A stretch of DNA of 64,000 nucleotides from assembly GCF_900157305.1 (NCBI RefSeq), contig NZ_LS974202.1:310001-374000 (forward strand), written 5' to 3'. The notes beneath the pieces are model-generated. The model was not told the origin of the DNA, did no database searches, and saw only the letters and a program-made list of their open reading frames with translations. Origin of the DNA: Mesotoga infera (GTDB lineage Bacteria; Thermotogota; Thermotogae; Petrotogales; Kosmotogaceae). Both the position numbers and the translations under genes were made by a program. Shown here in pieces: positions 11,384-30,100 of the stretch (positions are counted from its first letter, which is position 1; the number at the start of each line of letters is the position of its first letter).

Positions 11384-12211
11384 TTATCTGAGGATACTCG
11401 CCAGATAACCGACCGTACGGTATCTATCGCCTATAATTTCGCCGCTGGAAGTGTTTTTGAGAACTTTCATTTCCGTGAACATACTTCTTACCGCAACCAT
11501 TGGTCCCAATCCACAGGCACTTATACGTTCTTTTCCGGCCAGGCTGTACGCTTCTTCGTATTTCCCGTCTACCAGAAGCTGGACCAGTCTGGAATCCTTC
11601 TTCATCGTTGTTTCGTGAGGCTCGTAGTGGTTAAGGTCAGAGGAGGCTATTATCAACAAATCCTCTCTATCGCCTATAGAATTCTTTACTATATCGCCCA
11701 GAATCAGTGCTAGCTCAAGCCTCTGATCAGTCATCACGATCGGAACTATGCTTATTTGAGAATAGACGTACTGGAGGAAGGGAAGCTGCACTTCTATTGA
11801 ATGCTCGTAGAGATGCGCCGACGTATCTGCCTGAATCAGGCCCTTAGAGTTGTCTATCAGCTTTCTGCAGAGATCTTCATCGATACCCACTTCTCCAAAA
11901 GGAGTCGACCAGGCCCCATCAGTCCAGATAGACAGTCTGGTACCTAGTCCAGTATGATTTGGACCCACTATCAAGACAACAGCCGGTTGAACCAACAGAG
12001 AGGCTTCGTAGTATCCCCAGGCCGCCACGGGGCCGCTGGCCATATAGCCGGCATGGGGTACTATGAGACCGGACAATCCTCTCTTCTGCCCTCCGCCGGT
12101 CGGCAACATCCCCGGACCGGCCGGGTGCAAAAAGCAATTTTTTATCTGAATCTTTAGATCCTCGCTGTCGCCGGCGTAAAACTTTCCGCTGACAACGGGT
12201 TTTCTCGTCAA
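11384..12211 (-). CDS. MEMO1-family protein (AmmeMemoRadiSam system protein B)
   Basis: This 275-residue protein is of the MEMO1/AMMECR1-associated family, related in fold to class III extradiol dioxygenases. The conserved His and acidic motifs are present: VPHAGYMASGPVAAWGY (His53), VGPNHTGLG, EHSIEVQLPFLQY and IASSDLNHYEP. In many prokaryotes it occurs with AMMECR1 and a radical-SAM protein as the AmmeMemoRadiSam trio, but neither partner is next to it here. The enzymatic activity of prokaryotic members is not firmly known. The start codon overlaps the secretin stop by 4 bp (12208-12211), so the two are probably translated together. Confidence 0.9.
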   Translation of the reverse strand: MTRKPVVSGKFYAGDSEDLKIQIKNCFLHPAGPGMLPTGGGQKRGLSGLIVPHAGYMASGPVAAWGYYEASLLVQPAVVLIVGPNHTGLGTRLSIWTDGAWSTPFGEVGIDEDLCRKLIDNSKGLIQADTSAHLYEHSIEVQLPFLQYVYSQISIVPIVMTDQRLELALILGDIVKNSIGDREDLLIIASSDLNHYEPHETTMKKDSRLVQLLVDGKYEEAYSLAGKERISACGLGPMVAVRSMFTEMKVLKNTSSGEIIGDRYRTVGYLASILR

Positions 12212-15200
12212 GGCTGTACCACCTCCGCCGTGATGAAGATAACAAGCTCTCTCTTATCGGTGGTCTTGGTCTCGGTGGTGAAAAGCTTACCGATGAATGG
12301 CAGATCGCTCAAGAAAGGCATCTTGTTGACATTCACGGAGTCTTTGTTTGCTACCAGTCCACCGATTGTCAGTGTATTGCCATCACCAATCACAAGTTTG
12401 CTCTTGGCCTCTCTGGTCTTTTCACCGTAGAGCGTTCTGGTGCCATCGACATATTTCTCGGGTTCGCTGACCTTTATATAGAGGTCGAGAAGAATCTTCC
12501 CATCATCGTTGACCGTGGGAGTTATGCGTAACTCGACACCGGTGTTGAGATTCTCTATGGTCTCGATTTCCACCGGCCGACCATCGACGTACTCTATCTT
12601 TTTCACCAGATATGGTATGGTGTCTCCTATATGAATGGTCGCCTCTTCACCGCTCATCGAAACTATCGAGGGGCTGGATATAAGGTCGGAATCAGCGTCT
12701 CTATCCTTGAGATCGGCACTGATGTTGGCATTTGCAGTGTTCACTATGCTGTCCAGTATCTTCGAGATATCGAGGTTTTCGAAGATCTTGAAATTCAGAT
12801 CGATAGAACCGTTCTGGATTATTACATCGGGATTCGTGATTTCCAAGGACGTGGTGAAATCTCTCTGCATCTCATCCACTAACGACTTATCCACTAGTTT
12901 GGTCTCTATTCTGACCTGCTTCTTCGGTTTGGCCAGAGAACTGGCGATTTCGTCGAATATGCTGTCCACTTTGGACTTTGCGAGCCCTCTAACTACTATG
13001 TAACCGTTGACCGGGTCGGAAAGAACCTCTCCGCCGTAGAATTCGATCAGTTTCGTCACTTCTTCGACGTTGTGGTAAACGCGATATACGAGCTCTATGT
13101 CCGTCGCTTCCTGACCGGACTTCTGTTCCTTCTTAGTTACGGCGTATATATTGTCTATCCTGCTTATGGAGACGGGTTTCGTAGCGTTGATAACCTTAAC
13201 CAGACTTTCCCAATCGATCTCTTTGACGGACATGGTTATGTTTTCATCTATCACATCTATGAACAGCAAGGGAATATCGAGCTTTCCCGCTACGACTCTA
13301 AGCAACCTTTCGAGGTCCTGGTTAACCACATCTATGCCAATCTTTGACCCGCTGACTGTAACACCCTTCTCGACTGGATCCACGGCCTTCCTGGACTCTT
13401 GAACATTCTTTATCATCGCTTCGGCGTTGTCTAGAACCATTGAGCTCTTGGATTTAAGAAGTATCATCTGCAGGTTCTCGAAGGTCTGTACCGTCAGGCC
13501 ATCTATAGCTTCTCTGAGCAGAGAGGCGAGCTCCTGAGGATCTACCGTTAGATCAGTAACGTATCTGGATATCTCTCTGTCGGCCGCTGCTTCTTCAATC
13601 GTTTTTGTTAATTTCATCAGGGAATCCGGATCTCCTATGAGCAGCCATTGTTTATCCAGTTCCACGAACTCCGCCTTCAGGTTCAGTTTGCTTATCATTT
13701 CCGAGAGTTGAATCTGCGTCACCAGACCTTTGTCGATCCTAACGGATTCTCTGGCCGCCTTGTTGGCAATGAACAGGAGCGCTTCCTCGGCCATAGCCAG
13801 GTCGTTCTGAGCACCTATTCCAACTATCCTGCCTGCATATTCGATCACCGAACCCAACTTTATACCGGCGGCTTCAAGGTAGTTCTGAATATCCACCACA
13901 CTCCATCCACCAATCACCGGAAGCTCATAAAAAGTTTGTTTCCCGCTTCCATTCTCTTCCATGGAAGTGCGAAGTTTTTCTAGAAGGTTTGTGGAAGCTT
14001 CGATAGCGTTCGCCTTGCCTACAAATATCAATCTTCCGCTGAACTTTCCAATCGTTACCTTTATGCCTATCTCTTCGAGAATGTTCCGTAAAGCCTCCAG
14101 ATCAAGCTCCTTTTCAAGTGTAGGACTAAGGGCAACAATACTATAATCCAGGAGCTTTTCGCCGGCACCGGCCGCCTGGAAAATCACGGTTATCAGATTC
14201 TGTACATCCTCGGCGGCACCAACCAGCATATAGCGAGATGGACTCACCTGAATTATAGAAACGTCCAGTAAGAGATCTTCGGCCATTCTCTGTAGAATTT
14301 CGGGATCCAGGTTCTCGGGAAGGTCTACGTACTCGAAGTGTACACGCTGGTTGTCGTCTATGTAATTAACAGCCGCCTGTGCCAGATCGATCGATTCTGT
14401 ATCGCCTACCAAAAGATATCCACCGCTCACATCGTATATTCCTGCGAGTCCTATTCCCTTGGCGGTGAGATACATGTTTAGAGTAACTGAATCTATTCCA
14501 GTGATGGCTTTGATGAACCTGAACTGGTTTATCACACCAGTTTTCTCAACGACCAGTCCTTTAAGAATCTCCTCGAAACTCTTCAAGTCCTTTTCCGTTC
14601 CTATCATGAAGACTCTATCACCGACGATCTGGAACTTCAACTTCAATTCCATCAAGCCCGCGATCGTTTCGAGCTGGCCGATCTCAGTTCCGACCGGCAT
14701 TGCGAAGGTTACATACGATATCGATCCATCGGTCGATGTACCGCTCGCGTCGATGCCGATGCGGAGTGAAGATATCAACTGCTGTCCCTTGCTAAGGGAG
14801 TCTTTTGTACCTACCATGATGGCGTAATCGCCGGCTTCTATCAATCGAATAGGTATCTGTATGGACTCGAAGGCCGTCTGGAGCTGCCCGATAGTTAAAT
14901 TCTTGGGCAGTATCGTGATAGTATAGGATAGCGGCTCTTCGGTACCGCCAATGTCTTTGGACAGCGATTCGAAGACATCCAGCGCAGCTTTTACACCCCC
15001 TTCACTACCGGTGAAAACCATCCAGTCCTCGTTTTCCAGGATTTCAACAGATATCCCGATGAGCCTGAACAGCTGACCCAACAACTGCGTCGTTACTCCT
15101 TCCTTTATTTTCACGATTTCGTAGGTGTTTCTCTCACCGGTATCGCCGGTGGAAACCATTATCAATTTTTCAAGAAGCGACTCAGCTTCGTCCAGAGATT

Positions 15201-18200
15201 CGGTCTTTCCGGCGAGTAACAATACATTACCCACTTGCAAGAGTTCGAGTTCGATACCGGTCTTTCCCAGCGCCTTTTCCACATCGAATAACGTGAATCC
15301 CGACGGCAAAGAAAGTAGCCTGTATGCCTTCTCCACAGATTCGGCCGATTGTTCGGGTCTGAAGATCTCGACGAGTCTCCTGGTCTCTTCTATGTCCGCA
15401 ATACTTCCCGTTACGAGGAGTTTATTGCCGTTCCTGATGATAGTGCTGGGGATCTTCAAGGAATTTATAGCTTCGTTCACAACGTCGATATTCATATCAG
15501 CCGGTACGTCGATGACCTCATAAGCGAGCTTCATCACCTCGGGCCTGCTACTGGTGCCATGTAAATCGCTTATTACACTTACGACCTTCGGCAGAGATTG
15601 TGGATCTCCCACCAGAATTAGCACATTACCGACCTGCGTGAGATCGGCCTCAAGGCCTATCTTTTCGAGAATGCCAGAGAGAGATGCAAGATCGAAGCCT
15701 GTCGGCATCGAAATCGTCGTATACTCTCTGGTAACATACTGCACCGGAACTTCCTCTGGTCTGAACTCTGAAAGCAATTTCTCGGCCAGAGCGTTCTCTT
15801 CACTAGTTCCTACGAAGACTATAGAATCGGAAACCTGGACGATCCTGGATGATATCTTGAGCGAATCCAGCAGCGATTCGAACTCGGTCAGTCCTACACC
15901 GGACGGAAGCGAGGATATCTTGTAGGAGACCGTCTCTTTGCTTCCGCCTTCCAGAGCGCCCGATATATTAGTCATAAGACTCTTGAAGGAATCCACACTG
16001 CCCGTAGTTCCTATAACTACAATATTCCCGGCAACCGGGATCATCTCCACGTTCAATCCGAGCCTCTCGGCCAGGAGACCGGCTTCTTCCATTGTCAAAG
16101 TCTCTGGAAGTGCAACGACGGAGTAGATCTTCTCAATGTCTTCTAGGGCTTCCTCCGGTCTCAAATACTCAACGATATCACCCGCTTTTCTGAGATCGCT
16201 GTCAGGACCAATCAACATCAAGCGACTATCGATCTGAACTGTGGATATGCTCAGGCCCATATCGGTCATTATCTTCTGGAACTTTTCGAGGGTTAATTCC
16301 GCGGGCAGATCGATAAGAGTGTAGGAAAGGGCCTTCCCAAGTCCGCTCCTGATAATTTCGTCGAGCATAGCAATGGCCATTTTCACGTCTTCTTCAGGCC
16401 CCGAGATAGACATGCTCTGTCCGAGTCTCGTGTAGGAGAGGTTGAATCCAGAAGACAAAAGTGTATCGCGCAACTCTTCAAATTCCATACCTGAAGGAAT
16501 GGCGTAAAGCTCAGTTGCTTTCTTGATCTTTATATCCAGATCGTCAAGAAGAGCTTTCACCTTCTCAAGATCCTTTCGAACACCAATCAGAAGATAACCC
16601 CGACTACTCTCCTGGAAAACCAGAACATCCACATTCATGGCCTGCAGGAAATTGCCCAGGATTTCTCCAGTCCAACCTTCAAGCAAAGGATAGAAGGCAA
16701 CAGTGGTCTCAGTTGCAGTAGAAGTGGAATCGATCTTTTTCAAGAGATTCTTGAGGGAGTTCAGTTCCGACGGTTTGCCGACGGCGACTATGCTATCTCC
16801 TTCACCGTAAACTTTGATGTTTATCCCCATACTCGCCAAGATTTCTCTCAAATAATCCAGGTCAACTCCAACGTTCGTGAGCGTCTCTATCTGTGGAGCT
16901 TCTTCTGCCGGCTGTTTGACAGCAACCTCGTTCAATATGCTCCTCAGATTCGATATATCCTGTTCCTTACCGTATACTACGAAACTGTTTCTCATTTCAA
17001 ACACCGAAACATCGAGTTTCAGGGTCTCCTTGATACCGTTTAGCTCTTCGAGGGTGACCTCTCTGGGAACTATCGCGGTTATTCTGTGCTCATCGACGAT
17101 ATCGTTCCTGATAGTCAAGAATCTTTCCAGTTCACTCTGAGTGCCGATCATCACCAGCTTTCCAGCGACAGAAAGGGGATAAACGTTCAGGTTGAACGCT
17201 GAGATCACAGACTGAGCTGCTGCAAGATCGAACCCGTCTCTGATTTCTAGTGCGAGGTAGCTCTGCACCCCGGGAACTATTTGAGCCTCTCTTCTAGACA
17301 GAATAGAGGTTGCCGTTTCCCTGGCTCTATCTATCGCTCCTTGTACACCTACCACGATCGTACCCGTCGGGGTACCAAGGATGTCCACCGTAATGCCAAG
17401 TCTTTCGAAGATCGCTTTGAAATTCTCGATCTCCTCGGTTGGAATGTCTATGAACGTGAAGAGAATTTGATCCCCTGTCTGTGTGATCTCAACATCTTCT
17501 TTCAGTTCATCTAAGACCTTCAATGCCTGCAAAATGTCTCTCTCTGGACCTATAAGCATGGTCTTTCCATCTGTTATGACAACGGTGACCGAGAGTCCCA
17601 TTCTTTCGAAGAGAAGTTCCAAATTTTGAACTGAGGGAAGTGAATCCACAATTCTGTAATGAGGTTTCTCCAGTCCGGTCAGTCTCGAAAGCTCTTTCTG
17701 TATCCTGTCCAGTACTCCCGATGGACCTACAATCAGATAGCCCGATTGGATGGAAGTTATACTTATCTTTGCCCAATCCTTTTCTCCGAGATAGCTTCTG
17801 AGATAAGTGGTCAGTTTTCCTTCTTCCCAGCCGACTAAATTGTTGAACAATCTCGATTCCGTCGTCTCGTCTATTTCCAATTTGGAAAGTATTGATTGCA
17901 CTACTTCTAAAGCCTTGTCAGTCTCAAGCTCTTCACCAACAAGAATTACTCCCGAAGGCGAAGAAAGCAGTTTCACCGGGAGCTTCAGGTTATCGAGAAT
18001 ATTCGAGAATTCATCCATTTTGTCGATCGGTATTTCCGTAAAGACATACTTCAATTTTTCGTCGACGGCTATCACATCGGTTCGGTCGCTTATGGAACTT
18101 ATTATATCTACGGCCGAATCGATTGCCTCTCTGTAACCCACAATAATCATGTTGTTTCCATAACCGATAACGGTGACGGCTATTTTCATCTCTTCGAGTA

Positions 18201-21200
18201 CCTGCCTGACGATTTCCAGTACTTGAGAGCCGGCCTCCAGAATTGTGTACTCGTATTCACGCGAAGCGACAGGTGATTCAACATCTCTTCTTAGCATCTG
18301 GATCAGATCCACCGTTCTAGTAACGCTCTCCTTCTTCCCGACCACGAGGTATCTGTCCTCTATCGGGAGAATGGTGACTTTCAGGCCCAGTCTCTCCAGC
18401 AGTGTGCCAAGCTCTTCTATCGCAGGCAGCTTCTCTTCCACTATGTAGTACGGGTCTTCTATGCTCGTCAGTCTCGTCGCTTCCTTCTCCATCCTGTCGA
18501 GTACTTCCTGTGGTCCTATCACTATGTATCCGCCAGTGGACGGAGTTATGGATATCCTTCCGAAATCATCCTCCCCAAGGTAGTCCCTGAAGTAACCCGA
18601 ATACTTGTCGTCGCTCCAGCCCGGAACCACTGACAGCACGGTCGAGACTCTGACACTCTCCCCAACCTTGCTCTCTATCTCTTCCTCCCTCGCCAGTATC
18701 GCGTTGATTATCTCCACCGCGCTCTTGACAGCCTTCTCCTCTCCTATTACCAGCACTCCTGAGGGTGAAGAGAGAAGATCCACTTCGTACCCCAGTCTCT
18801 CGAGTATCCCGCCGTAGCTTTCTATCTGCGAGCTCTCGACTCCCACGAAAGAGTAGGTCACTTTCTTCTCCACAGGTGTCTCTTTCAATCTCTCTGCTAT
18901 CGGCGTAAGCAGTTCACGCCCCGCTTCCAGATCCTTGCTGGAGCCTATCATCACAACGTTGTTGCCTATCTGGATCAGCTGTACCTTCACCTTCAACTCT
19001 TCCAGTGTTCTCTCCAGTGAGTCTATGTACTGGGCTTCTATCTCCACGAATTCGAAGCCCTGCGGCTCTTCCACCGCAGGTTGCATCCCAGCCTTCAGCG
19101 TTGAGATGAATTGTGAGGCCTTCTCCACGCTCTCCTTCTTCCCGACCACGAGGTATCTGTCCTCTATCGGGAGAATGGTGACTTTCAGGCCCAGTCTCTC
19201 CAGCAGTGTGCCAAGCTCTTCTATCGCAGGCAGCTTCTCTTCCACTATGTAGTACGGGTCTTCTATGCTCGTCAGTCTCGTCGCTTCCTTCTCCATCCTG
19301 TCGAGTACTTCCTGTGGTCCTATCACTATGTATCCGCCAGTGGACGGAGTTATGGATATCCTTCCGAAATCATCCTCCCCAAGGTAGTCCCTGAAGTAAC
19401 CCGAATACTTGTCGTCGCTCCAGCCCGGAACCACTGACAGCACGGTCGAGACTCTCCTTGGCTGTTCTCCGGCCGAACTCATCTCTACTTCTTTTGCAAG
19501 AACCGCATTCACAGTTTTCAGAGCCTTTTCGACCTTTTCTCCCGTCCCCACGATCAGGACGCCCGAAGGCGATTGCATCAGTTCAACACCGGCTCCAATT
19601 TTATTCAATATGGCCTGGTAGCTTTGAATATCGGCCAATGGAATTTCTGTAAATGTATAAACTGGCTCCTCAACCTGAGGGCTGATCCTCTTACTCATTA
19701 TATCCGCGACTATACTGGAGGCCTTTTCTATTGTAGATCCAGTTCCTATGGCGACCACACCCGAAGGTGAAGATAGTAGTGATACATCTACTCCCAGTCT
19801 ATCCAGTATCTCCTGGAGACTCGCAGTGTCTTCATCTGGAATATCTAGAATCCTGTACTCCAGAGGTTCTTCCTCCACTGTCTCTACAATTAACGATCCC
19901 AGAAGTCTATTCAATATCTCTCCGGCCCTCTGAACCGCATCTGATGAACCGATTATTATCGCCGAACTGCCCATCGGAACGAGATCTACTACTACACCTA
20001 GCCTGGCCAGTAATCCCGTTAGATCCTCAACGGGCGGTAGTTTCTCCTTCACAACGAACTCGGGATCTTCAAATTTTCTAATTCTTTCTAGTTCGCTCTC
20101 TATAGGTTCTTTGAGATCTAGAGGCGTGAGAACTACATATCCACCGACCGATTCGAGAATCGATATCCTGGCGAAGTCATCGGCACCCAGGAAGAAACGC
20201 GCGTACTGTCCGAAATCTTCTGTGGTCCATCCTGGAATGTTTTTTATCTCTATCGATACTCTACTTTCACGATCTATCTCCTGTGCCTGAAGGCTCTTGT
20301 AGAGAGACTTGAACTTCACGAGATCTTCTTCGCGCCCGATAGCTATGAGTTTGTCGGAGATGCCAAGCAATGAAATATCGTATTCAAATGTCTTCAGTAA
20401 CGGCGTTAAAGCTTCTACACTGAGTCCCTGGGTCAGTGGTAGCAACAGGTAGCTCTCGTGTTTCTCTTTCTGTGGGATTTCGGGAACTTCTCTCGACATC
20501 AGCGAGTCGATTAGGCCGATGGCTCTCGAAAGCTCCTGTGGAGCCCCGATGGCGATGACGCCAGTTGGGGTTTCAAGAAACTCAACCTGTATTTCGAGTT
20601 TCTGCATGACCGGTAACAGTTGATCTATCAGAGGTGCTTCGATATCCACGAATCTGTAGTCAGGTTCGGGTTTTGAGTAGAGGCTCTCACGGTGTTTTAA
20701 AATTGATTCAATGACACCTGACGCCTCTTCCAGTCGATCGGCCTGACCTATAACTATCGCTCCCGAGGAAATTCCCACTATATCCACCGGAATGTCAAGT
20801 TTATTGATCACTGACGCGAGAACCGGTATATCTTCGGGTATTGTCTCGATCAGGGTGAAGCCAAGTTCTGCCGGAGGTTCTTCCTGGGTAGCACTGTCAG
20901 GATAGATAGTCTCGACTATCTGATGTAAAATATCAGAAGTGCTGATCACGTTTTCTTTTGTTCCAACGATCAAGTATCTGTCTTCCAGAACTATTATGTT
21001 GACTTTTATACCGAGCGTAGCTAATAACTGCTCGAACTTGTCAAGGGCGGGAATGCTCTTCTCTATGGTGAAGAAGGGGTGCTCTAGCTGGGCCAGTCTC
21101 GAAATCTCCGTTTCAAGTTTCTTCACTGTCTCCTCCGGACCGACTACGATGTAACCTCCAGCTGAAGGTGTGAGCGAGATCCTAGAGTACTCGTCTTCCC

Positions 21201-24200
21201 CGAGGAAGTCGCGGAAATAGTCGAAAGTCTTCTGTTGATCCCAGCCCGGAACCACCGACAGCACGGTCGAAACTCTGACACTCTCCCCAACCTTGCTCTC
21301 TATCTCTTCCTCCCTCGCCAGTATCGCGTTGATTATCTCCACCGCGCTCTTGACAGCCTTCTCCTCTCCTATTACCAGCACTCCTGAGGGTGAAGAGAGA
21401 AGATCCACTTCGTACCCCAGTCTCTCGAGTATCCCGCCGTAGCTTTCTATCTGCGAGCTCTCGACTCCCACGAAGGAATATCCGATTTTACCCTCCGCAG
21501 TATTGTCAACTATCTGTGCTGAAACATCGTCCAGGATCTCTTTTGCGGCATTTACTTCTTTCTCTAGACCGACGATCACCATGTTGTTTCCCGCTTCTAT
21601 CAGTCCAACTTCGATCTTCAGACTGGAGAGGATACTTTCTACAACGCCCTTAAACTGAGGATTGACATCGGAAAATCTGTAAACGTACTTCACATCACCT
21701 GTATCCAGATCTGTCTTGAGTGTGTCGATCAGCTCTCCGGTTTTAATTACATCGCTCTCGGTGCCGACGATAAGATTTTTCTCTCCTACCGGTAGGATGT
21801 TTACGTTCAACCCAAGTCTTTCCAAGAGTCTGCCTAGCTGATCAACCGGTGGCAGAGCATCCTTTACCAGATAGAAGGGGTCCTCTATCTCCGACAATCT
21901 GACGACTTCGGTCTGTATCTTCGTCAGAGTTCTCTCCGCTCCTATGACTATAAAGCCGCTAAAGGAAGGGGTTATGGAGATTCCGGCAAATTCGCCCTCT
22001 CCAAGGAGGCTTCTGAAGTAATCTGTGAATTTGTCCTCCGTCCAGCCCGGTATATTTTTTACGATCATCGATACTCTTTGACGTTCATCACTCTGGACAA
22101 TGGTTTTCGCTTCACGTTCCAGTATGGCCTCTATTATCGGTCTGGCTTTATCTATATCTTCTTCGGTTCCTATAAGAAGGACACCAGCTGGAGAGGAAAA
22201 GAGTTCGACATTCAAACCAAGTCGCTTCAGAATCTCGCCGTAAATGGCAACGCCATCTGAAGGTATATCGACAAACTCGTACACTATCGAAACTTCTTGC
22301 GAGGGTTTCCTTTCCAGAATATTGTTGGCTATTTCGAGCGCCTTGTTCACCTGGTCTTCCTTGCCTACGATCAATATTCCTGCAGGAGATTCAAGGAGCG
22401 CAACCTCTATATCTATACTATCGAAAATAGGCACGAAGTACTCCATATCTCCGGAAGTTATGGCGGATAATTTGAAAATCTGTGGTTTTGTCTGCTCTGG
22501 AACTCCCAGAGTGTCAACCAATTTAGTTATCAGCTCGCGCGCTTTGGCAACGTTCTCCGAAGAACCGACCACGACACTGTAGTCTTCTACCTTAAGTATA
22601 TCGACGATGATTCCCAGTCTCGCGAGGAGGTTGTCTATTTCCGTTATGTTTGGCATTCTCGTTTCTATGGAATAAGAGGGATTCTCGATCCTTGAAAGCC
22701 TTTCGAACTCTTCGCTAATTGCACCTGTCATCGATCCGGGAGCGTTCAATATATATCCTTTGGAAGTCTGGATCAGAGAGATCTCTTCTACCTTTTCGCC
22801 AAATACAACTCTTAGGTAAGCAGCGAGCCTGGTAGGATCCCAGCCGGGTATACCGGGTAGCTCTACGCTCACTCTGGCATCTTCAACACTTTCACTGGAG
22901 AGAATCTCTCCGTAAAGCGCGTTGAAGCTGTTTAAGTCGTATCTGTCTCCGACCGCAACGATCTTGTCGTACACTGGAGTGAAGGTAAGATCGTATCCGA
23001 AGACCTGCACAACTGATTTGAGCGAATCAATGCTGATGTCGCTTCTACCACGGAATATCATATACCCCGTTTCTTTATCGCCCTGAGTAGGGGTAACCGA
23101 CTCTTTTTTAAGAAGATCCTCTACCAGTTTTTTGACGATTCCCAGATGGACGTCGCTTCCAATACCAACGATTCCGGAAGGGGTATCAACGAAATCCACT
23201 TCGATCTTCAGTTTCTCGACAATCGTTTTGAGGCTTTCGAGAGAGCCGGGGTCCACATCCACGAGGCTGTAGCCAATAGGACCGGTTTCAAGAGGTTCAA
23301 GCCTTGAAAGTATTGATTCCACCACTTCCATGGCCTTCTTCAACCTTTCTTCAGGGGCGACTGCGGCAACTCCGGTTGGTGTATTCACGAACTCAACGGG
23401 TAAGTTCAATTTCTCGAGAAGCTCTGATAGACCAGCTACTTCTCCATAAGGGATGTTTACGAAAGCGTAGTTGTAAACGGTACCGGGAACTGTCACTTCT
23501 CCTCCGACCGGCAGGCCGCTGCCAAGCTGACTTATAAGTCGGGAGACCTCTTCCACGTTTTCCTGAGATCCGACAACCATGAACTGATTATCTACGGGAA
23601 TTATTGACACAGCGATGCCCAGTCTCTCGAGAAGCGACTCGAATTGACTCAAGGACGGTATCGACGACTCAAGTCTATAAAAAGGATTCTCAAGCATTCT
23701 GAGCTTTTCGGCCTCACCATCCACCGTGTTCAAAAGACTTTCCGGTCCTACTACTATAAATCCGTTTCCAGACCTTGTAACTGTGATAGTTGCAAATTCA
23801 TCCGGTCCGAGAAAGTCTCTTAGATATGTCTGGAATTTATCGAGGTCCCAGCCTGGTATCGAACCTATCTGAAGAGAAATTCTGGCTTCCTGTTCCGAAA
23901 GATTTTTCTCGATCATTTCGACTATCCTGGGGACTCTTGTCTCTATGATTTTCGCCAATTCCGAAAGTCTTTCCGGATAACCCCTCAGAACTATCAATCC
24001 TGCGGATCTGATGAATACCTTCGATTCCTCGGGATTCAAGAGTGTATCTATCAGCTCTCCCAAGCCCGAGTCATAGATCTCCGGAGCCACTTCGAGTATA
24101 AGATCTTCGGTTTTTCTGAATATCTGTTTCTCTCTGTTCTCCAGTTCCACCAGGGCTTCATCGAGTATATCCGAGGGAGCATAGATGTAAATGAGTTTTT

Positions 24201-25848
24201 CGGATATCTGCTCCAGAGAATACTCGTCAACAACCAGACCTCTTGAAGCGAAATAGGAGTCGAAAAAGCTCTTGACCTCGTTGAAAGTGTTTTCTGCTTT
24301 GAGCTCTATATAAGTGTTCCTGTAATCTTCAAATGTGATTCCTGTGAAAAGGCTCAAAACGTACTGAGCCGTTTCTATGGAAGCTTTCGAACCTTTGATT
24401 ATGTACCCTTTCTTCTCGCCTATGGTCTCGATTACGGCACCTGTGATTTTTTCGACTTGCGATATCGTTTCTTCAACAACGGGCATATGGTACTTTATCA
24501 CCGAGTAAGTAACCCCTTCGGATATCTTGCTAAACGATTCCATAGTCTTTTCGACGAACTCGACCAGGTATTTCGGCAGATCGAAGGTCACTTTTCCAAC
24601 CGGTTCGAACGTCCTGTCAACGGTTACACTATCTTTGGAATAGCTCTGGAGAAGGTTCAAAATCGTTCCAACTATCGTACCGTCGCCTGGTAAGCCTGAA
24701 CCGGAACTACTGCCAAGTCTCAGAACGTCTTCCACTAGAAAGAAGTTTTCCGGCAGAGTGTAGGTTATCCTGATCCTGCTCGAATCGAGTTTCTCGGACG
24801 TGAGATTCTTCCTGTAGAGCTCCAGGTATTCGAGAAGCTCATCGACGTATTTACTGTTGCCAGAAAGTATTATCCTGTTGAACTGCGGTATAGTACTTAT
24901 GGTGACGGAATCGGAGAAGAGAATGGAGTTTAGCTCTCTTGCAAGCGTTTCGTAAGCCGTCAGTGGCTCAACTCCGGTTGATGTTGCCTCAGAAGGCGCA
25001 GTAAACTCTTTCGTGACAATGTTGGTGGTAAGTAAAGATGAAAGCATGAAATGTGTCTGGAGATCTCCAAATACCATCAGCGAGGCTTCGTTTGGTAGAT
25101 ATTCTATGAAACTGTTTACGGGAAGCGTCTTTCTAAGTCTTTCCACCTGCTCCGAGACCGTTTCTCCATCGACATTGAACTCCACACCGATATAAGTTCT
25201 CCAGAAAGTGTTGACCAGTTCTCTCACTTCATCGGGAGTACCCAGATAAAAAGTACCGTCGCTCAAATATGCATATGCCACCTTGTCACCGAGCGAGGTT
25301 AGGATGTTTCGAAGTATCTCTTCTGGTAGAGCCAGGTTGAAGCCTACAAGTATCTTCTCGTCTCTCACGCTTGGTGAGAGTATGTAAGAAAGGTTCAATA
25401 TCTCCTCTGAAAAGAGATAGGTCATCGCGCTGGCGATGGTCATTCCGTAAGTTGTGAATTTATCTATATCCACCTCGGCACTCGACCGGAAAAACCTTAT
25501 GATCACAACGTTTTCCCTTACGATGATTTCCGGTTCGACTCTAGCGGGTGTGAGCAATGCGGTATTAACTGAGAGTCGTGACGGTTCCTGCCTGATCCAC
25601 AAACCTTCAACCGGTCCCATCCGAAGAGGAAGATTCATATCCTTCCCATTCACACCGTTCAGAGAAAGCGAGTATATCGTCTTCGACGGGTTTGACTGGA
25701 TGTTGTACGATTCGACGAACGGTTCGTTGAAGACCAGAGTAAGGGTAACGGATTCAACATCCATCGAAGGAATAACCGAACCCAGTTGATTCGAAAATGC
25801 TAAAGCGATGGCGCTCAGAACCACGAAGAGAACCGCGACTTTTCTCAC
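12208..25848 (-). CDS. Giant modular secretin (about 4,546 residues)
   Basis: This is a secretin, the outer-membrane channel of type II secretion and type IV pilus machines, roughly six times the usual length. I chose GTG at 25846-25848. GGGGTGA precedes it and it gives a clean signal peptide (MRKVAVLFVVLSAIALAFSN). An in-frame TTG at 25890 overlaps the upstream stop and would add 14 residues. After an AMIN-like beta domain (about 35-125) come about 59 tandem modules of roughly 70 residues. Each has a strand-helix-strand-strand-helix pattern such as LERLGYEVDLLSSPSGVLVIG, quoted in part. In the first 60% they recur as four-module blocks marked by PGW near the block start. The end is conventional: an N0/STN-like domain (about 4150-4230), an N1-like domain (VNGYIVVRG) and the secretin core with MPFLSDLPFIGKLF and ELVIFITAEVV. 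There is no lipobox. Confidence 0.93.
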   Translation of the reverse strand: MRKVAVLFVVLSAIALAFSNQLGSVIPSMDVESVTLTLVFNEPFVESYNIQSNPSKTIYSLSLNGVNGKDMNLPLRMGPVEGLWIRQEPSRLSVNTALLTPARVEPEIIVRENVVIIRFFRSSAEVDIDKFTTYGMTIASAMTYLFSEEILNLSYILSPSVRDEKILVGFNLALPEEILRNILTSLGDKVAYAYLSDGTFYLGTPDEVRELVNTFWRTYIGVEFNVDGETVSEQVERLRKTLPVNSFIEYLPNEASLMVFGDLQTHFMLSSLLTTNIVTKEFTAPSEATSTGVEPLTAYETLARELNSILFSDSVTISTIPQFNRIILSGNSKYVDELLEYLELYRKNLTSEKLDSSRIRITYTLPENFFLVEDVLRLGSSSGSGLPGDGTIVGTILNLLQSYSKDSVTVDRTFEPVGKVTFDLPKYLVEFVEKTMESFSKISEGVTYSVIKYHMPVVEETISQVEKITGAVIETIGEKKGYIIKGSKASIETAQYVLSLFTGITFEDYRNTYIELKAENTFNEVKSFFDSYFASRGLVVDEYSLEQISEKLIYIYAPSDILDEALVELENREKQIFRKTEDLILEVAPEIYDSGLGELIDTLLNPEESKVFIRSAGLIVLRGYPERLSELAKIIETRVPRIVEMIEKNLSEQEARISLQIGSIPGWDLDKFQTYLRDFLGPDEFATITVTRSGNGFIVVGPESLLNTVDGEAEKLRMLENPFYRLESSIPSLSQFESLLERLGIAVSIIPVDNQFMVVGSQENVEEVSRLISQLGSGLPVGGEVTVPGTVYNYAFVNIPYGEVAGLSELLEKLNLPVEFVNTPTGVAAVAPEERLKKAMEVVESILSRLEPLETGPIGYSLVDVDPGSLESLKTIVEKLKIEVDFVDTPSGIVGIGSDVHLGIVKKLVEDLLKKESVTPTQGDKETGYMIFRGRSDISIDSLKSVVQVFGYDLTFTPVYDKIVAVGDRYDLNSFNALYGEILSSESVEDARVSVELPGIPGWDPTRLAAYLRVVFGEKVEEISLIQTSKGYILNAPGSMTGAISEEFERLSRIENPSYSIETRMPNITEIDNLLARLGIIVDILKVEDYSVVVGSSENVAKARELITKLVDTLGVPEQTKPQIFKLSAITSGDMEYFVPIFDSIDIEVALLESPAGILIVGKEDQVNKALEIANNILERKPSQEVSIVYEFVDIPSDGVAIYGEILKRLGLNVELFSSPAGVLLIGTEEDIDKARPIIEAILEREAKTIVQSDERQRVSMIVKNIPGWTEDKFTDYFRSLLGEGEFAGISITPSFSGFIVIGAERTLTKIQTEVVRLSEIEDPFYLVKDALPPVDQLGRLLERLGLNVNILPVGEKNLIVGTESDVIKTGELIDTLKTDLDTGDVKYVYRFSDVNPQFKGVVESILSSLKIEVGLIEAGNNMVIVGLEKEVNAAKEILDDVSAQIVDNTAEGKIGYSFVGVESSQIESYGGILERLGYEVDLLSSPSGVLVIGEEKAVKSAVEIINAILAREEEIESKVGESVRVSTVLSVVPGWDQQKTFDYFRDFLGEDEYSRISLTPSAGGYIVVGPEETVKKLETEISRLAQLEHPFFTIEKSIPALDKFEQLLATLGIKVNIIVLEDRYLIVGTKENVISTSDILHQIVETIYPDSATQEEPPAELGFTLIETIPEDIPVLASVINKLDIPVDIVGISSGAIVIGQADRLEEASGVIESILKHRESLYSKPEPDYRFVDIEAPLIDQLLPVMQKLEIQVEFLETPTGVIAIGAPQELSRAIGLIDSLMSREVPEIPQKEKHESYLLLPLTQGLSVEALTPLLKTFEYDISLLGISDKLIAIGREEDLVKFKSLYKSLQAQEIDRESRVSIEIKNIPGWTTEDFGQYARFFLGADDFARISILESVGGYVVLTPLDLKEPIESELERIRKFEDPEFVVKEKLPPVEDLTGLLARLGVVVDLVPMGSSAIIIGSSDAVQRAGEILNRLLGSLIVETVEEEPLEYRILDIPDEDTASLQEILDRLGVDVSLLSSPSGVVAIGTGSTIEKASSIVADIMSKRISPQVEEPVYTFTEIPLADIQSYQAILNKIGAGVELMQSPSGVLIVGTGEKVEKALKTVNAVLAKEVEMSSAGEQPRRVSTVLSVVPGWSDDKYSGYFRDYLGEDDFGRISITPSTGGYIVIGPQEVLDRMEKEATRLTSIEDPYYIVEEKLPAIEELGTLLERLGLKVTILPIEDRYLVVGKKESVEKASQFISTLKAGMQPAVEEPQGFEFVEIEAQYIDSLERTLEELKVKVQLIQIGNNVVMIGSSKDLEAGRELLTPIAERLKETPVEKKVTYSFVGVESSQIESYGGILERLGYEVDLLSSPSGVLVIGEEKAVKSAVEIINAILAREEEIESKVGESVRVSTVLSVVPGWSDDKYSGYFRDYLGEDDFGRISITPSTGGYIVIGPQEVLDRMEKEATRLTSIEDPYYIVEEKLPAIEELGTLLERLGLKVTILPIEDRYLVVGKKESVTRTVDLIQMLRRDVESPVASREYEYTILEAGSQVLEIVRQVLEEMKIAVTVIGYGNNMIIVGYREAIDSAVDIISSISDRTDVIAVDEKLKYVFTEIPIDKMDEFSNILDNLKLPVKLLSSPSGVILVGEELETDKALEVVQSILSKLEIDETTESRLFNNLVGWEEGKLTTYLRSYLGEKDWAKISITSIQSGYLIVGPSGVLDRIQKELSRLTGLEKPHYRIVDSLPSVQNLELLFERMGLSVTVVITDGKTMLIGPERDILQALKVLDELKEDVEITQTGDQILFTFIDIPTEEIENFKAIFERLGITVDILGTPTGTIVVGVQGAIDRARETATSILSRREAQIVPGVQSYLALEIRDGFDLAAAQSVISAFNLNVYPLSVAGKLVMIGTQSELERFLTIRNDIVDEHRITAIVPREVTLEELNGIKETLKLDVSVFEMRNSFVVYGKEQDISNLRSILNEVAVKQPAEEAPQIETLTNVGVDLDYLREILASMGINIKVYGEGDSIVAVGKPSELNSLKNLLKKIDSTSTATETTVAFYPLLEGWTGEILGNFLQAMNVDVLVFQESSRGYLLIGVRKDLEKVKALLDDLDIKIKKATELYAIPSGMEFEELRDTLLSSGFNLSYTRLGQSMSISGPEEDVKMAIAMLDEIIRSGLGKALSYTLIDLPAELTLEKFQKIMTDMGLSISTVQIDSRLMLIGPDSDLRKAGDIVEYLRPEEALEDIEKIYSVVALPETLTMEEAGLLAERLGLNVEMIPVAGNIVVIGTTGSVDSFKSLMTNISGALEGGSKETVSYKISSLPSGVGLTEFESLLDSLKISSRIVQVSDSIVFVGTSEENALAEKLLSEFRPEEVPVQYVTREYTTISMPTGFDLASLSGILEKIGLEADLTQVGNVLILVGDPQSLPKVVSVISDLHGTSSRPEVMKLAYEVIDVPADMNIDVVNEAINSLKIPSTIIRNGNKLLVTGSIADIEETRRLVEIFRPEQSAESVEKAYRLLSLPSGFTLFDVEKALGKTGIELELLQVGNVLLLAGKTESLDEAESLLEKLIMVSTGDTGERNTYEIVKIKEGVTTQLLGQLFRLIGISVEILENEDWMVFTGSEGGVKAALDVFESLSKDIGGTEEPLSYTITILPKNLTIGQLQTAFESIQIPIRLIEAGDYAIMVGTKDSLSKGQQLISSLRIGIDASGTSTDGSISYVTFAMPVGTEIGQLETIAGLMELKLKFQIVGDRVFMIGTEKDLKSFEEILKGLVVEKTGVINQFRFIKAITGIDSVTLNMYLTAKGIGLAGIYDVSGGYLLVGDTESIDLAQAAVNYIDDNQRVHFEYVDLPENLDPEILQRMAEDLLLDVSIIQVSPSRYMLVGAAEDVQNLITVIFQAAGAGEKLLDYSIVALSPTLEKELDLEALRNILEEIGIKVTIGKFSGRLIFVGKANAIEASTNLLEKLRTSMEENGSGKQTFYELPVIGGWSVVDIQNYLEAAGIKLGSVIEYAGRIVGIGAQNDLAMAEEALLFIANKAARESVRIDKGLVTQIQLSEMISKLNLKAEFVELDKQWLLIGDPDSLMKLTKTIEEAAADREISRYVTDLTVDPQELASLLREAIDGLTVQTFENLQMILLKSKSSMVLDNAEAMIKNVQESRKAVDPVEKGVTVSGSKIGIDVVNQDLERLLRVVAGKLDIPLLFIDVIDENITMSVKEIDWESLVKVINATKPVSISRIDNIYAVTKKEQKSGQEATDIELVYRVYHNVEEVTKLIEFYGGEVLSDPVNGYIVVRGLAKSKVDSIFDEIASSLAKPKKQVRIETKLVDKSLVDEMQRDFTTSLEITNPDVIIQNGSIDLNFKIFENLDISKILDSIVNTANANISADLKDRDADSDLISSPSIVSMSGEEATIHIGDTIPYLVKKIEYVDGRPVEIETIENLNTGVELRITPTVNDDGKILLDLYIKVSEPEKYVDGTRTLYGEKTREAKSKLVIGDGNTLTIGGLVANKDSVNVNKMPFLSDLPFIGKLFTTETKTTDKRELVIFITAEVVQP
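18323..18651 (-). repeat. Exact 329-bp direct repeat, copy 1 (inside giant secretin)
   Basis: Compared base by base by eye, this segment is identical to 19127-19455 (offset 804 bp). It encodes about residues 2400-2509, two modules of types A and B. The identity stops abruptly at both ends: at 18322 versus 19126 and at 18652 versus 19456. Confidence 0.95.
18647..18849 (-). repeat. Exact 203-bp direct repeat, copy 1 (inside giant secretin)
   Basis: Identical to 21272-21474 (offset 2625 bp). It encodes about residues 2334-2401 and begins with SSQIESYGG. Its end at 18647-18651 overlaps the 329-bp repeat by only 5 bp, so 18323-18849 is a mosaic of two other copies. Confidence 0.95.
19127..19455 (-). 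repeat. Exact 329-bp direct repeat, copy 2 (inside giant secretin)
   Basis: Identical to 18323-18651. It encodes about residues 2132-2241. No synonymous difference is visible over 329 bp, so the duplication or conversion is recent. Confidence 0.95.
21272..21474 (-). repeat. Exact 203-bp direct repeat, copy 2 (inside giant secretin)
   Basis: Identical to 18647-18849. It encodes about residues 1459-1526. The flanks remain similar but carry scattered differences (for example gtcgaa here against gtcgag in the other copy). Confidence 0.95.
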
Positions 25849-25886
25849 AGAAATCACCCCATATTTACCCCTAGAGTCAGAGGAGT

Positions 25887-26327
25887 TCAAGACCTGAAAT
25901 ATTTCACAACCACAAAGCTGTTCGTGCTGGTATCGTTAAGCAAAACGGCAAATTCCGTTATTCCGTACACAATATACGAGGGATCTACGCGTTCGCCGAC
26001 CCTTACCGTGACCTGCGTTCCGGCCGTATCGAGAACGGCATAATCCACCCTGTTCAATCTGAAATACGCTACATAAGCTATGTTTTCCGCTTCCTGTCCT
26101 ACTTCGAGCATAGAGCTTATAACCTCGGACGGGCTGGCAAAAAGCGGTGTAAAGTGATCTTGCATCCTGACTGGTTCGGATAAGCTTGAAGTGTTGATCG
26201 GCTCAACCCTTATTCTATTGGCCGTGACTTCGGTTATTTCCACAGGTTGAAGAAGGAAAGCGAGCAGAACGCCACCCATTACTAAGGCGCAAATCAAAAC
26301 GACGATTATTACAACCAATTTCTCCAT
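25887..26327 (-). CDS. PilP/GspC-like inner-membrane protein
   Basis: The 146-residue protein has an N-terminal membrane anchor (about residues 4-26, LVVIIVVLICALVMGGVLLAF). After a linker comes a C-terminal beta-rich domain (about 75-146: AYFRLNRVDYAVLD, VTVRVGERVD, YGITEFAVLLND). This layout resembles the HR domain of GspC and the beta domain of PilP, which bind the secretin N0 domain. The position immediately before the secretin and after PilM/N/O-like genes supports that role. Sequence identity to named families cannot be judged by eye. Its stop overlaps the possible TTG start of the secretin. Confidence 0.6.
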   Translation of the reverse strand: MEKLVVIIVVLICALVMGGVLLAFLLQPVEITEVTANRIRVEPINTSSLSEPVRMQDHFTPLFASPSEVISSMLEVGQEAENIAYVAYFRLNRVDYAVLDTAGTQVTVRVGERVDPSYIVYGITEFAVLLNDTSTNSFVVVKYFRS

Positions 26328-26945: not shown

Positions 26946-27523
26946 TGTTTATCACCCACTTCAAGGTCAATAATCTGAAGGGTGTAAAGGTCCGCGAATT
27001 CTAGGTTACCTCGCACATTGGGAGTTGACAGCAAAACCGGAGTGCTCGATGGGGTAGGGAAGGAGACTTTGTTTCCATCGTATATCAGATAATAGAAGGC
27101 GTTACCTTTACCATTTTCGAAATTCACCCTGGTGAGAATGGTCTTGACTGCATTTTCATCATTCAGAAAGGTGTTTAAAGTTCTGAAGACATTCATTTCA
27201 AGAGATTTTCTCTGAACATGTGTTCTAAGATCCCTTACCTGCATTGAAAGTCTGTTTTTTGAGTTTATGTATTCCTGCTTTTTATCTCTTATCGTTTGAA
27301 TATCCTGCCTGAGATTACCCGTTAGGTATGTTCCGGTGTTATCGAAGAGAAAGCCTTTCAATCTCGAAATCTGCCTCAGTCTGAATTCGAAAGCCTGTGA
27401 GGCCAAAAAGCGCGCTCCTACGACCAGAACTACAATGAGCAATAGTATGATCAAAGCATTTCTAAGCCTGCAAACTCGTTTCTTCTTTGAATACAAGTTT
27501 ACGTCTACCAAGCTGCTCACCAC
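26942..27523 (-). CDS. PilN-like assembly protein
   Basis: The 193-residue protein starts with a short cytoplasmic segment containing VDVNLYSKKKR, resembling the INLLP motif by which PilN docks onto PilM. It is followed by a membrane span (about 24-44, ALIILLLIVVLVVGARFLA), a helical region and a small alpha/beta domain. The start is uncertain: GTG at 27521-27523, GTG at 27518-27520 or TTG at 27509-27511 all fit. It overlaps the end of the PilM-like gene by about 50-60 bp, which suggests tight coupling. It overlaps the PilO-like start by 4 bp. Confidence 0.65.
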   Translation of the reverse strand: MVSSLVDVNLYSKKKRVCRLRNALIILLLIVVLVVGARFLASQAFEFRLRQISRLKGFLFDNTGTYLTGNLRQDIQTIRDKKQEYINSKNRLSMQVRDLRTHVQRKSLEMNVFRTLNTFLNDENAVKTILTRVNFENGKGNAFYYLIYDGNKVSFPTPSSTPVLLSTPNVRGNLEFADLYTLQIIDLEVGDKQ

Positions 27524-28499
27524 CCCTCATGAGAAGTCCGGCCGTTGTGTAAGTAATTCCTATCGTTTCTTTTATCTTCAAAGGTAGGACAAGAACACCG
27601 GTATCCCCCCCGAGCATTCTCTGGAAAGCCCTGCCGTATACGGCAGTAGAAAGGCTTGATTGACCGACCACGAAAAACTTGCTGAAAGATGCCTCATCGG
27701 CAGCCGAAGTGTTTGGAGAACTCGATAGGGTATTGGTCAAATACATCCTCAACTGGTAAGATATCATACTCTCGAGCTGTTCCGACGCTTCCTCTATGAG
27801 TGAATCGTAATAAGCTTTTGATCCTGTGAGAAACTCCCTTTGAATATCCGTGTTCGGAGAGAGCGAATCATCTTCCCTGAATTTACCTGCCACATCAGAA
27901 AAACCGCCGTTTATGTAGTTCAGCCCCACTATTTCATCACCCTTGAGCATCACCAGAAGAGAGTAATCGCTGTCAACCATAAAGAGAACGTAATTGCCCT
28001 CTAGCGCGTCCATTTGAGCAATTTTGAAGATCTGAAAAGGCTTCACATCAACAACGTTGGGCTCTGGGAAGCCACTTTGTCTGAGATTGCTTATGAACTC
28101 ATCTAGTACCTTCCTGCGGGTAATGACAAAAGCCGGCACGATTCCGCTTTTAAGAGCGGTCAAGGAATTTAGGCATGCCACACTGACTTCGTCTGGCGGC
28201 AGAGAGAACTGGGAGGCCGCTTTGTAGCTGGCAACATTGAGAAGGTTCTTCATGGATTTGACCCTTGGAACTTCGAGATGCTGGAAAACGACGTTCTTTG
28301 GATGAAAGCTCGTTACAAAAATCTCGTCGGAGGGAAGAGAATTGTACTGCATGAAGATCCTGACAGCTTCATCCAAACTCTTTGGACCTGTTTTTAAAAC
28401 CGAAAAGACAGGCTTCAAGTAACGGCCTTCGACTACAGCCCTGGCTATTTCGGTATAACCGTCATCGATGTTCAGTGCCGTTATCATGGTCTGGAACAT
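27462..28499 (-). CDS. PilM-like actin-fold assembly protein
   Basis: This protein of about 345 residues has the layout of PilM: TALNIDDGYTEIARAVVEG at the N-terminus (first phosphate-loop strand region), a middle segment IFVTSFHPKNVVFQHLEVP, then EGNYVLFMVDSDYSLLVML with GDEIVGLNYINGG (second phosphate loop region) and a C-terminal GLLMRGG. PilM is a cytoplasmic ATP-binding protein that recruits PilN. The usual GxDIGSxxVK motif is degenerate here, so nucleotide binding is uncertain. I chose ATG at 28497-28499 with GGGGAG 8 nt upstream, rather than the GTG three codons earlier. Confidence 0.7.
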   Translation of the reverse strand: MFQTMITALNIDDGYTEIARAVVEGRYLKPVFSVLKTGPKSLDEAVRIFMQYNSLPSDEIFVTSFHPKNVVFQHLEVPRVKSMKNLLNVASYKAASQFSLPPDEVSVACLNSLTALKSGIVPAFVITRRKVLDEFISNLRQSGFPEPNVVDVKPFQIFKIAQMDALEGNYVLFMVDSDYSLLVMLKGDEIVGLNYINGGFSDVAGKFREDDSLSPNTDIQREFLTGSKAYYDSLIEEASEQLESMISYQLRMYLTNTLSSSPNTSAADEASFSKFFVVGQSSLSTAVYGRAFQRMLGGDTGVLVLPLKIKETIGITYTTAGLLMRGGEQLGRRKLVFKEETSLQA

Positions 28500-28523
28500 T
28501 CGCTTCACTCCCCGAATCGTTGC

Positions 28524-28904
28524 TCAGTATGTCACCTTACCCGTTACGGGTTGTATCGTAAGAACAGTATCATTCTCAAAGTATAGCGTTGTCGAACCAC
28601 TGAGTATCGCTATCGAACCTTCGCCATTGAAGATTATCCTGAAGTCCTCCAGATTTTTCCACAGACAGTTCTCTAGCAAATCCCCGGTGTTCGAGTAAAG
28701 CTTTCGCTGCCTGTAATTATATATTAACTCAACGGTCTTAGATCTTCTGACAGCCTTCAGTCTCTGGTTTTCGAGAAAGCAATCGAGTTCCACCTTACTC
28801 AACTCTATCGACAAATTGGAGATCGCTTCTCCCGAAAAAGCCATTATACAACCCATACATATGCCGACTATGGCCAGACAACATACAAGTTCCACTACAC
28901 TCAT
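28524..28904 (-). CDS. Pseudopilin-like protein without a leader peptide
   Basis: The 126-residue product begins MSVVELVCCLAIVGICMGCI. This resembles the mature N-terminus of type IV pilins and pseudopilins (FTLIELLVVIAIIG): a hydrophobic helix with Glu at position 5. Here the Glu is at residue 5 counted from the start Met, so no positively charged leader or Gly(-1) is encoded. The C-terminal part is a small beta-rich domain (SIAILSGSTTLYFENDTVLTI). It overlaps the GspF/PilC stop by 4 bp. I checked in-frame codons upstream and found no better start in the last dozen codons. Three Cys occur in the helix. Confidence 0.6.
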   Translation of the reverse strand: MSVVELVCCLAIVGICMGCIMAFSGEAISNLSIELSKVELDCFLENQRLKAVRRSKTVELIYNYRQRKLYSNTGDLLENCLWKNLEDFRIIFNGEGSIAILSGSTTLYFENDTVLTIQPVTGKVTY

Positions 28905-30100
28905 CCAATACTCTGCTCCATCGCGAATATCGTGTTGTACATGGTGTAAGCCAGAAACCCTATAAATCCTCCTATGAATATGATCATAATAGGCTCTACA
29001 AGGGAAACAAGTTTCTTAAGTGAGCTCTGAACCTGCGTGTGATAGAAGTCGGCCACCTTAAACATGACCTCGTCGAGCTTTCCTGTTTCCTCGCCCGTCG
29101 CGACCATACTAACCACAATCGCCGGAAAGACTTTCTGCTGGCCCAGAGCAACGTGGATGCTTTCACCGGCCTTGATCTGGGAAATCGAAATCTGTATGGC
29201 GTGCTCCAGAGAAGGACTCTGAGAGACCTGACCGGCAAGTTCTAGTACCGTCGGTAAATCGACACCACTGGCAACCAGAACCGCGGTCGTTCTGGTGAAC
29301 CTTTCCATGGCCGTCATGTTTCTCAACTTTCTTATAGGAGGTATGATTTTTCCAAAGATTTCTTTGACATAGTTGCCGTATTTACTTTTAAAGAAAAGCC
29401 ATCCACCGACTAAAATACCGACCAGTCCAAGCAGAATGAAAAGCCAGTGAGATTTAAGAATACCATTTATGCCCAGAAGAATCCCCATCACTCCCGTTGG
29501 CTTGAAATTACCTCCGAAAGCGCTGATCAGGTTGGGCAATATGAAAAAAGAAATTATTCCCACGATACCGACCGCGAAAACCATCATGAACAGTGGATAG
29601 GCCATTGCAGATTTTACTTCGTTCTGCAATTCGACCATGCCTTCGTAGAACTCTGAGACTCTCTGGAGCGATTCGTCCAGTACACCTCCGGTCTCCCCCG
29701 CTTTAACCAGGTTGGTGAAAAGAGGCTCGAAGACTCCAGATTTTTCCAGCGATTCGTTGAAACTCATACCGCTCTCTATATCCAGAATAACTCTGTTTAT
29801 AATTTTCCTGAACCTTCGGCTGAAGAGCACTTGAGTTGAAAGAACCTGAAGCGCATCCCTTATTCTGACCCCTGAAGAAACCATTGTCGATAGCTGCCTC
29901 GCGAATAGACTAACCTCTTTAGGAGAAAGAGGAAAGATCGAAGTACGCACATTGTTCTGAGATGCGATCGGCCTTATTGCGCTCACCGTGTAACCTCTGC
30001 CCGAAAGGATTTGAAGGGCATCGAGTTTGGAGTTGGCGGTCAGCTTTCCTTTTTCGGGTTTACCCTTACTGTTTATGACTTCGTATCTAAAGTCAGGCAT
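28901..30100 (-). CDS. Type II secretion/type IV pilus platform protein (GspF/PilC family)
   Basis: This 399-residue inner-membrane platform protein has two T2SSF domains. An N-terminal ARMAN-like region (YEVINSKGKPEKGKL) precedes domain 1 with FARQLSTMVSSGVRIRDAL and ESGMSFNESL. A membrane pair follows (about residues 170-235), then domain 2 with RFTRTTAVLVASGVDLPTVL and VATGEETGKLDEV. A final span (PIMIIFIGGFIGFLAYTMY) follows. In pilus and T2SS machines it couples the hexameric ATPase to pilin insertion. It overlaps ispF by 8 bp and the pseudopilin by 4 bp. No ATPase gene is present nearby. Confidence 0.93.
   Translation of the reverse strand: MPDFRYEVINSKGKPEKGKLTANSKLDALQILSGRGYTVSAIRPIASQNNVRTSIFPLSPKEVSLFARQLSTMVSSGVRIRDALQVLSTQVLFSRRFRKIINRVILDIESGMSFNESLEKSGVFEPLFTNLVKAGETGGVLDESLQRVSEFYEGMVELQNEVKSAMAYPLFMMVFAVGIVGIISFFILPNLISAFGGNFKPTGVMGILLGINGILKSHWLFILLGLVGILVGGWLFFKSKYGNYVKEIFGKIIPPIRKLRNMTAMERFTRTTAVLVASGVDLPTVLELAGQVSQSPSLEHAIQISISQIKAGESIHVALGQQKVFPAIVVSMVATGEETGKLDEVMFKVADFYHTQVQSSLKKLVSLVEPIMIIFIGGFIGFLAYTMYNTIFAMEQSIG

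Follow-up and report, generated by a model that had tools for sequence, protein, structure and literature searches.

How does a single gene come to contain a stretch of 527 base pairs (bp) that is, base for base, a patchwork of two other places in the same gene? The question is raised by a giant secretin gene of Mesotoga infera, which we examined within 64,000 nucleotides of its genome (RefSeq assembly GCF_900157305.1, contig NZ_LS974202.1, positions 310,001 to 374,000; this whole stretch is called the window, and positions are counted from its first base). The gene encodes a long array of similar modules, organised in its first half in superunits A-B-C-D (~268 amino acids, aa) or A-B-C-D-E (~337 aa), and modules are named here by letter and superunit number. 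Our best reading, which we consider likely to be right, is that 18323-18849 is the product of a very recent gene conversion that used two templates and overwrote one superunit of this array. The elements concerned are the following.

12208..25890, minus strand: gene of the giant secretin, open over 4,560 codons counted from a TTG (PF00263, E 2.4e-39; best PDB sequence matches PilQ and GspD)
12214..12699, minus strand: C-terminal secretin (outer-membrane channel) domain, by match to the PF00263 family profile
13570..23865, minus strand: array of ~50 modules of ~67 aa (aa 676-4107; 49-51 hits with an iterated module hidden Markov model), with superunits U1-U8 in its first part
18323..18849, minus strand: patchwork recipient, D6 (18647-18849) and then A7-B7 (18323-18651), each part identical to another place, with a 5-bp overlap
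19127..19455, minus strand: presumed donor of tract 1, modules A6-B6, 329 bp, identical to 18323-18651
21272..21474, minus strand: presumed donor of tract 2, module D3, 203 bp, identical to 18647-18849

Tract 1 (18323-18651 against 19127-19455) was identical at 329 of 329 positions and tract 2 (18647-18849 against 21272-21474) at 203 of 203, neither could be extended by even one base, and the two overlap by 5 bp at 18647-18651. In module terms, A7-B7 equals A6-B6 in tract 1 and D6 equals D3 in tract 2, with 18323-18849 corresponding to D6-A7-B7. These were the only exact direct repeats of at least 25 bp in the window, where a search for inverted 25-mers found none, and in the whole genome (2,965,660 bp in one contig) the tract sequences occurred at three places only, with no further copy. 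Both tracts lie within the single frame 12208-25890 on the minus strand, which stays open throughout. Their length rules out chance, since other module pairs of the same class are only ~49-61% identical in DNA. An earlier note on this DNA had claimed exact repeats of 329 and 203 bp, a 5-bp overlap at 18647-18651, a 527-bp patchwork and strong divergence of the remaining modules, all of which sequence comparison bore out; mismatches inside the tracts, which it had named as evidence against itself, numbered 0 in 329 bp and 0 in 203 bp.

The borders of the tracts are abrupt. Upon comparing the copies in register, we observed full identity in the bins within each tract and background identity on either side, and, on the coding strand, U7 matches D3 up to base 18647 and A6 from base 18651. 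This switch point coincides with the edge of a 36-bp block that is identical at 34 of 36 positions between the two donor regions, while neighbouring bins match at 9-22 of 30. In-register comparison located three copies of the block:

18616..18651, minus strand: 36-bp block (AGAGTCTCGACCGTGCTGTCAGTGGTTCCGGGCTGG) at the template switch, for which the A4 and A6 copies are identical at 34/36
21241..21276, minus strand: copy of the block at the D3/A4 linker, with 2 mismatches
19420..19455, minus strand: copy of the block at the D5/A6 linker

A comparison of synonymous sites among modules, proposed in the earlier note, dates the copying. Over 77.3 + 47.3 synonymous sites (~125) the tracts show 0 changes, while other same-class modules of the gene differ at a proportion of synonymous sites (pS) of 0.66-0.89, saturated or nearly so, and the secretin has a synonymous divergence (dS) from the nearest species, the Mesotoga genome G004, of 0.38 in its N-terminal and 0.49 in its C-terminal part. 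Hence, the copying was very recent and, if rates are even, falls within about the most recent 6% of the period after the divergence from G004 (rule-of-three bound 3/124.6 = 0.024). Two features by which a gene conversion tract is recognised are present, namely identity far above that of the flanks with abrupt in-register borders, and identical synonymous sites among diverged paralogous modules. The recent gene conversion proposed in the earlier note is thus upheld by exact in-register tracts, two donors, unchanged synonymous sites, a homologous switch block and an open frame.

Since the two tracts stop within one and the same 5 bp, one recipient and two donors form the parsimonious arrangement; copying in the opposite direction is less parsimonious, because two unrelated events would have had to stop at the same 5-bp spot. 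D3 and A6-B6 would then be the donors, and both tracts presumably stem from one event, for which the repair route may have been as follows. While superunit 6/7 was being repaired or replicated, module D3, at a distance of 2.6 kb, would have served as the template for one side. The template would then have been switched within the 5-bp window at the edge of the near-identical 36-bp linker block, and A6-B6, at a distance of 0.8 kb, would have been copied in register for the other side, leaving the frame intact. The conversion would be the most recent step in the history of an array in which superunits repeatedly duplicate, exchange and homogenise by homologous recombination, and such recombination within, and probably also between, Mesotoga species may have led to a module number that differs among species.

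Several points weigh against this reading. The direction of copying is itself a matter of inference, and C6 and C3 differ too much for C6 to have come in together with the exact D6 tract. The repeats are known from one assembly of one isolate, which leaves a small probability of an assembly effect. The corresponding array of Kosmotoga pacifica (G030; contig positions ~1896280-1897751, L158 and L149) contains an exact 245-bp direct repeat, an inverted ~1-kb segment between its copies and a broken frame; this may be a real inversion or an assembly error, and it possibly reflects assembly trouble in such arrays. Lastly, the Mesotoga genome G001, whose secretin gene contributes to the case for recurrent exchange presented below, is assembled in 420 contigs, so its mosaic could be partly chimeric.

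The number of superunits differs among Mesotoga species. In a rival reading, a single recent event inserted the extra superunit C6-D6-A7-B7 along with the exact tracts, taking the number from 7 to 8. Comparing one genome per species and counting A-B anchors, in which the A module is marked by PGW (VGW in U8), we found 6 superunits in G002, G005, G006 and G007 (complete genes with open frames of 3,900-3,921 codons), 7 in G001 and 8 in the M. infera genome under study, where the anchors of U1-U8 are spaced by 336, 266, 267, 338, 269, 268 and 263 aa. Spacing and trees identified two extra superunits in M. infera:

18259..19065, minus strand: extra superunit C6-D6-A7-B7, absent from the four complete congener genes
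21271..22077, minus strand: extra superunit U3 (A3-B3-C3-D3), present also in G003 and, within the limits of its contig, in G004, and absent from the other congeners

The trees join C6-D6 to C3-D3 with 99% support, beside U3 of G003, and A7-B7 to A6-B6, the exact tracts contributing to both pairings; in a tree of C modules only, C6 stands next to C3 of G003 with a weak support of 71%, and C6 and C3 share 30% aa identity with DNA near background. Judged by these comparisons, C6-D6-A7-B7 is itself a patchwork, and the superunit probably predates the overwriting of D6-A7-B7, because C6 is far from any other C module and has no close copy. A joint arrival would account for the two tracts covering D6-A7-B7, most of a superunit that congeners lack, and for the 804-bp offset of exactly one superunit. 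Yet the B6 tail and C6 have no close copy anywhere in the M. infera genome or the genus, such that C6 would need a foreign donor, and the copies left by a simple tandem duplication should be identical across all 804 bp. We therefore regard a whole-superunit insertion as unlikely; a simple tandem duplication was rejected, identity extending over 329 of 804 bp and C6 not being paired with C7. The earlier note had held that module number and content are being reshuffled; this stands in that the number differs among species (6, 7 and 8 superunits), whereas the 329- and 203-bp tracts themselves need not have altered it.

A different concern is that reads of similar modules were collapsed or misjoined during assembly, giving false identical copies. 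Short reads do not easily resolve exact repeats that exceed their own length, and the array of G030 combines a repeat, an inversion and a broken frame even in a single-contig genome. The M. infera genome, on the other hand, is a single contig with 99.96% completeness, the frame is open over 4,560 codons, the joins C6/D6, D6/A7 and B7-tail are unique, in register and protein-sensible, and a collapse would not yield sharp borders to flanks at background identity. We consider an assembly artefact improbable. In the nearest species, contig C76 of G004 (L066:1-150) ends 18 nucleotides inside the D3/D6 repeat, a break that is the expected effect of a real repeat and at the same time shows the region to be hard to assemble; G004 has 95% aa identity at the secretin C-terminus, and its assembly lacks the middle part of the gene. 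Contig breaks within the array of G003, G008 and G009 were also considered as a sign of similar repeats and were given no weight, as these assemblies break often anyway.

Strong purifying selection that keeps the copies identical without recombination has next to no chance of being the explanation: the gene is under protein constraint (nonsynonymous divergence, dN, of 0.04 vs dS 0.38 to G004), but synonymous sites are identical too while same-class modules are saturated or nearly so, which rules out selection alone. An antigenic cassette system was rejected as well, since a search of the whole genome with the 527-bp stretch for silent donor cassettes found no copy outside the secretin gene, and a plasmid source was dropped for lack of a match.

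Signs of recombination in the same array are seen elsewhere in the genus and family. The secretin of G001 (L067, aa 1710-2110) is native-like (~90% to G005/G007) up to ~aa 1710 and then resembles that of G006 (84-94%) up to ~aa 2055, where native-like sequence resumes from a point 335 aa further back. The net result is one additional 5-module unit, and the crossover lies close to an LLSSPSG motif common to C and D modules; the seventh superunit of this gene apparently arose by a separate, interspecific recombination. G002 and G005/G007, from assemblies better than that of G001, share a ~150-bp tract at ~92% identity, compared with 73% on average; it stops at the D4/A5 linker, a site of the same type as the template switch in M. 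infera. The secretin of the Kosmotoga olearia-like G028 carries an internal repeat of 197 bp at 87% identity. Taken together, these sequence patterns lend support to recurrent exchange rather than a single accident. As natural competence is known in Thermotoga (PMC4029938), DNA from relatives is a possible donor. Separately, a region at secretin aa ~3201-3310 (L014-L017) sets G005 and G007 unusually far apart from G006 and G002, at 40-67% DNA identity, much less than elsewhere in the gene.

What kind of protein does the gene encode? The PF00263 match (135.1 bits against a curated cut-off of 27.5; aa 4398-4559) places it in the secretin family. The models for type IV pilus PilQ (TIGR02515, 129.6 bits against 284.35) and for GspD of the type II secretion system (T2SS; TIGR02517, 131.6 bits against 351.35) stayed below their curated cut-offs, as did the other specific secretin models, and we therefore limit the label to a PilQ/T2SS-type secretin. 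The true start is likely the GTG at 25848, directly before a signal-peptide-like stretch, which makes the start given in the earlier note plausible. By sequence, only two stretches pass as PF03958. An AlphaFold2 model of superunit U6 consisted of four beta-alpha-beta-beta-alpha domains (mean predicted local distance difference test score, pLDDT, 82.6), and its top PDB fold match was the secretin 8co1 (E 3.0e-6), with the secretin 5zdh also among the top (1.2e-5). Several other top matches were unrelated proteins with a similar local fold, showing that fold alone is not specific; as modelled, the U6 modules have the ring-building fold of secretin N-domains, as a member of the family should. By analogy with known secretins, the modules would be periplasmic. 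For the C-terminal 310 aa, a structure predicted from the single sequence was of insufficient quality to be considered (pLDDT 43.9).

A survey of 103 Thermotogota genomes found arrays of ~40-50 modules only in Mesotoga, in every congener with a complete gene. Secretin frames outside the genus mostly have 900-1,600 aa, some of the shorter ones being cut by contig ends or a broken frame. That of G028 belongs to the same family and reaches 2,635 aa with ~23 modules, about half the length of the M. infera protein and without an exact tract. The corresponding frames of Thermotoga-like genomes can be aligned along the C-terminal 463 aa, with 35-38% identity, and that of G090, taken to be T. maritima, differs in having ~1,290 aa with about four detectable modules. 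Judging from size and similarity, the T. maritima frame aligned here would be TM0088. TM0088 is curated as pilQ among competence genes, with the pilC gene TM_0094 on the same list (PMC5637354, Table 6). The PilQ of Thermus thermophilus shares the C-terminal secretin domain after stacked beta-alpha-beta-beta-alpha N-modules, which in Thermus span a wide periplasm; the sections of PMC5745081 cited here describe six rings, N0-N5, in a complex 350 Å long, among the largest such systems and unusual in ring number, and make no mention of superunits or recent internal copies. Six N-rings in 757 aa there compare with ~50 modules in 4,560 aa here, and the ~40-50 modules per protein lie far beyond that range. 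Our search of the literature on Mesotoga and secretin found nothing relevant.

Intragenic gene conversion and repeat-number change are already known in bacterial repeat proteins, for antigens in particular (review PMC4534519), and the likeness extends to in-frame copying between similar repeats, number variation and mosaic copies. In contrast to such antigens, no silent cassettes were found for the secretin and there is no immune context, and its repeats would form the periplasmic scaffold within a secretion channel. The striking features are how large the secretin is and how superunit number varies from species to species, with the exact tracts showing how the array is built and maintained, by in-frame copying and exchange of superunits. 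More modules should lengthen the periplasmic part of the channel, and module number may thereby tune channel length; were they to stack as in Thermus PilQ, ~50 modules might extend to well over 100 nm. Such a long tube is plausible because the toga of Thermotogales balloons away from the cell (PMC3387000). As a speculation to which we give only a small chance, the array might serve as a length-adjustable periplasmic tube for cells with a distant toga, in which recombination changes superunit number fast, even from one strain to another, and selection retains whichever length suits the envelope. The finding opens a direct test of whether secretin tube length matches periplasm width in Thermotogota with a ballooning envelope. 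The other role suggested in the earlier note, variation of an exposed surface, is an unlikely one, since known secretins have their beta-alpha-beta-beta-alpha N-modules in the periplasm.

By its C-terminus, the secretin has its closest relatives among Mesotoga and Kosmotogaceae/Thermotogales records. Upstream of it lie further candidate components of such a system, and small proteins between the PilM-like candidate and the secretin occupy the positions of PilN, PilO and PilP, a correspondence of position only, without a convincing family match.

28901..30100, minus strand: PilC/GspF-type inner-membrane platform protein, upstream of the secretin and in the same direction (PF00482, E 7.9e-59; GspF/PilC models below their cut-offs)
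27462..28508, minus strand: possible PilM-like protein (weak match to TIGR01175, E 0.0017, below cut-off)

As a baseline for long exact copies, we sampled 464 kb of the genome (20 stretches of 20 kb and the 64-kb window) and found exact nearby repeats of at least 200 bp at two other places, one in a gene for an InlB-B-repeat protein and the other in a duplicated gene for a group II intron maturase; a conversion-type process is therefore not special to the secretin. The InlB-B-repeat/fn3 protein gene (1,694 aa; L172:163-5247) has exact internal repeats of 784, 164 and 154 bp, and the adjoining gene for a 1,142-aa repeat protein has one of 90 bp. The group II intron maturase gene is present in two copies 2,131 bp apart (L178:5024-9090), with exact stretches of 1,203, 478 and 214 bp.

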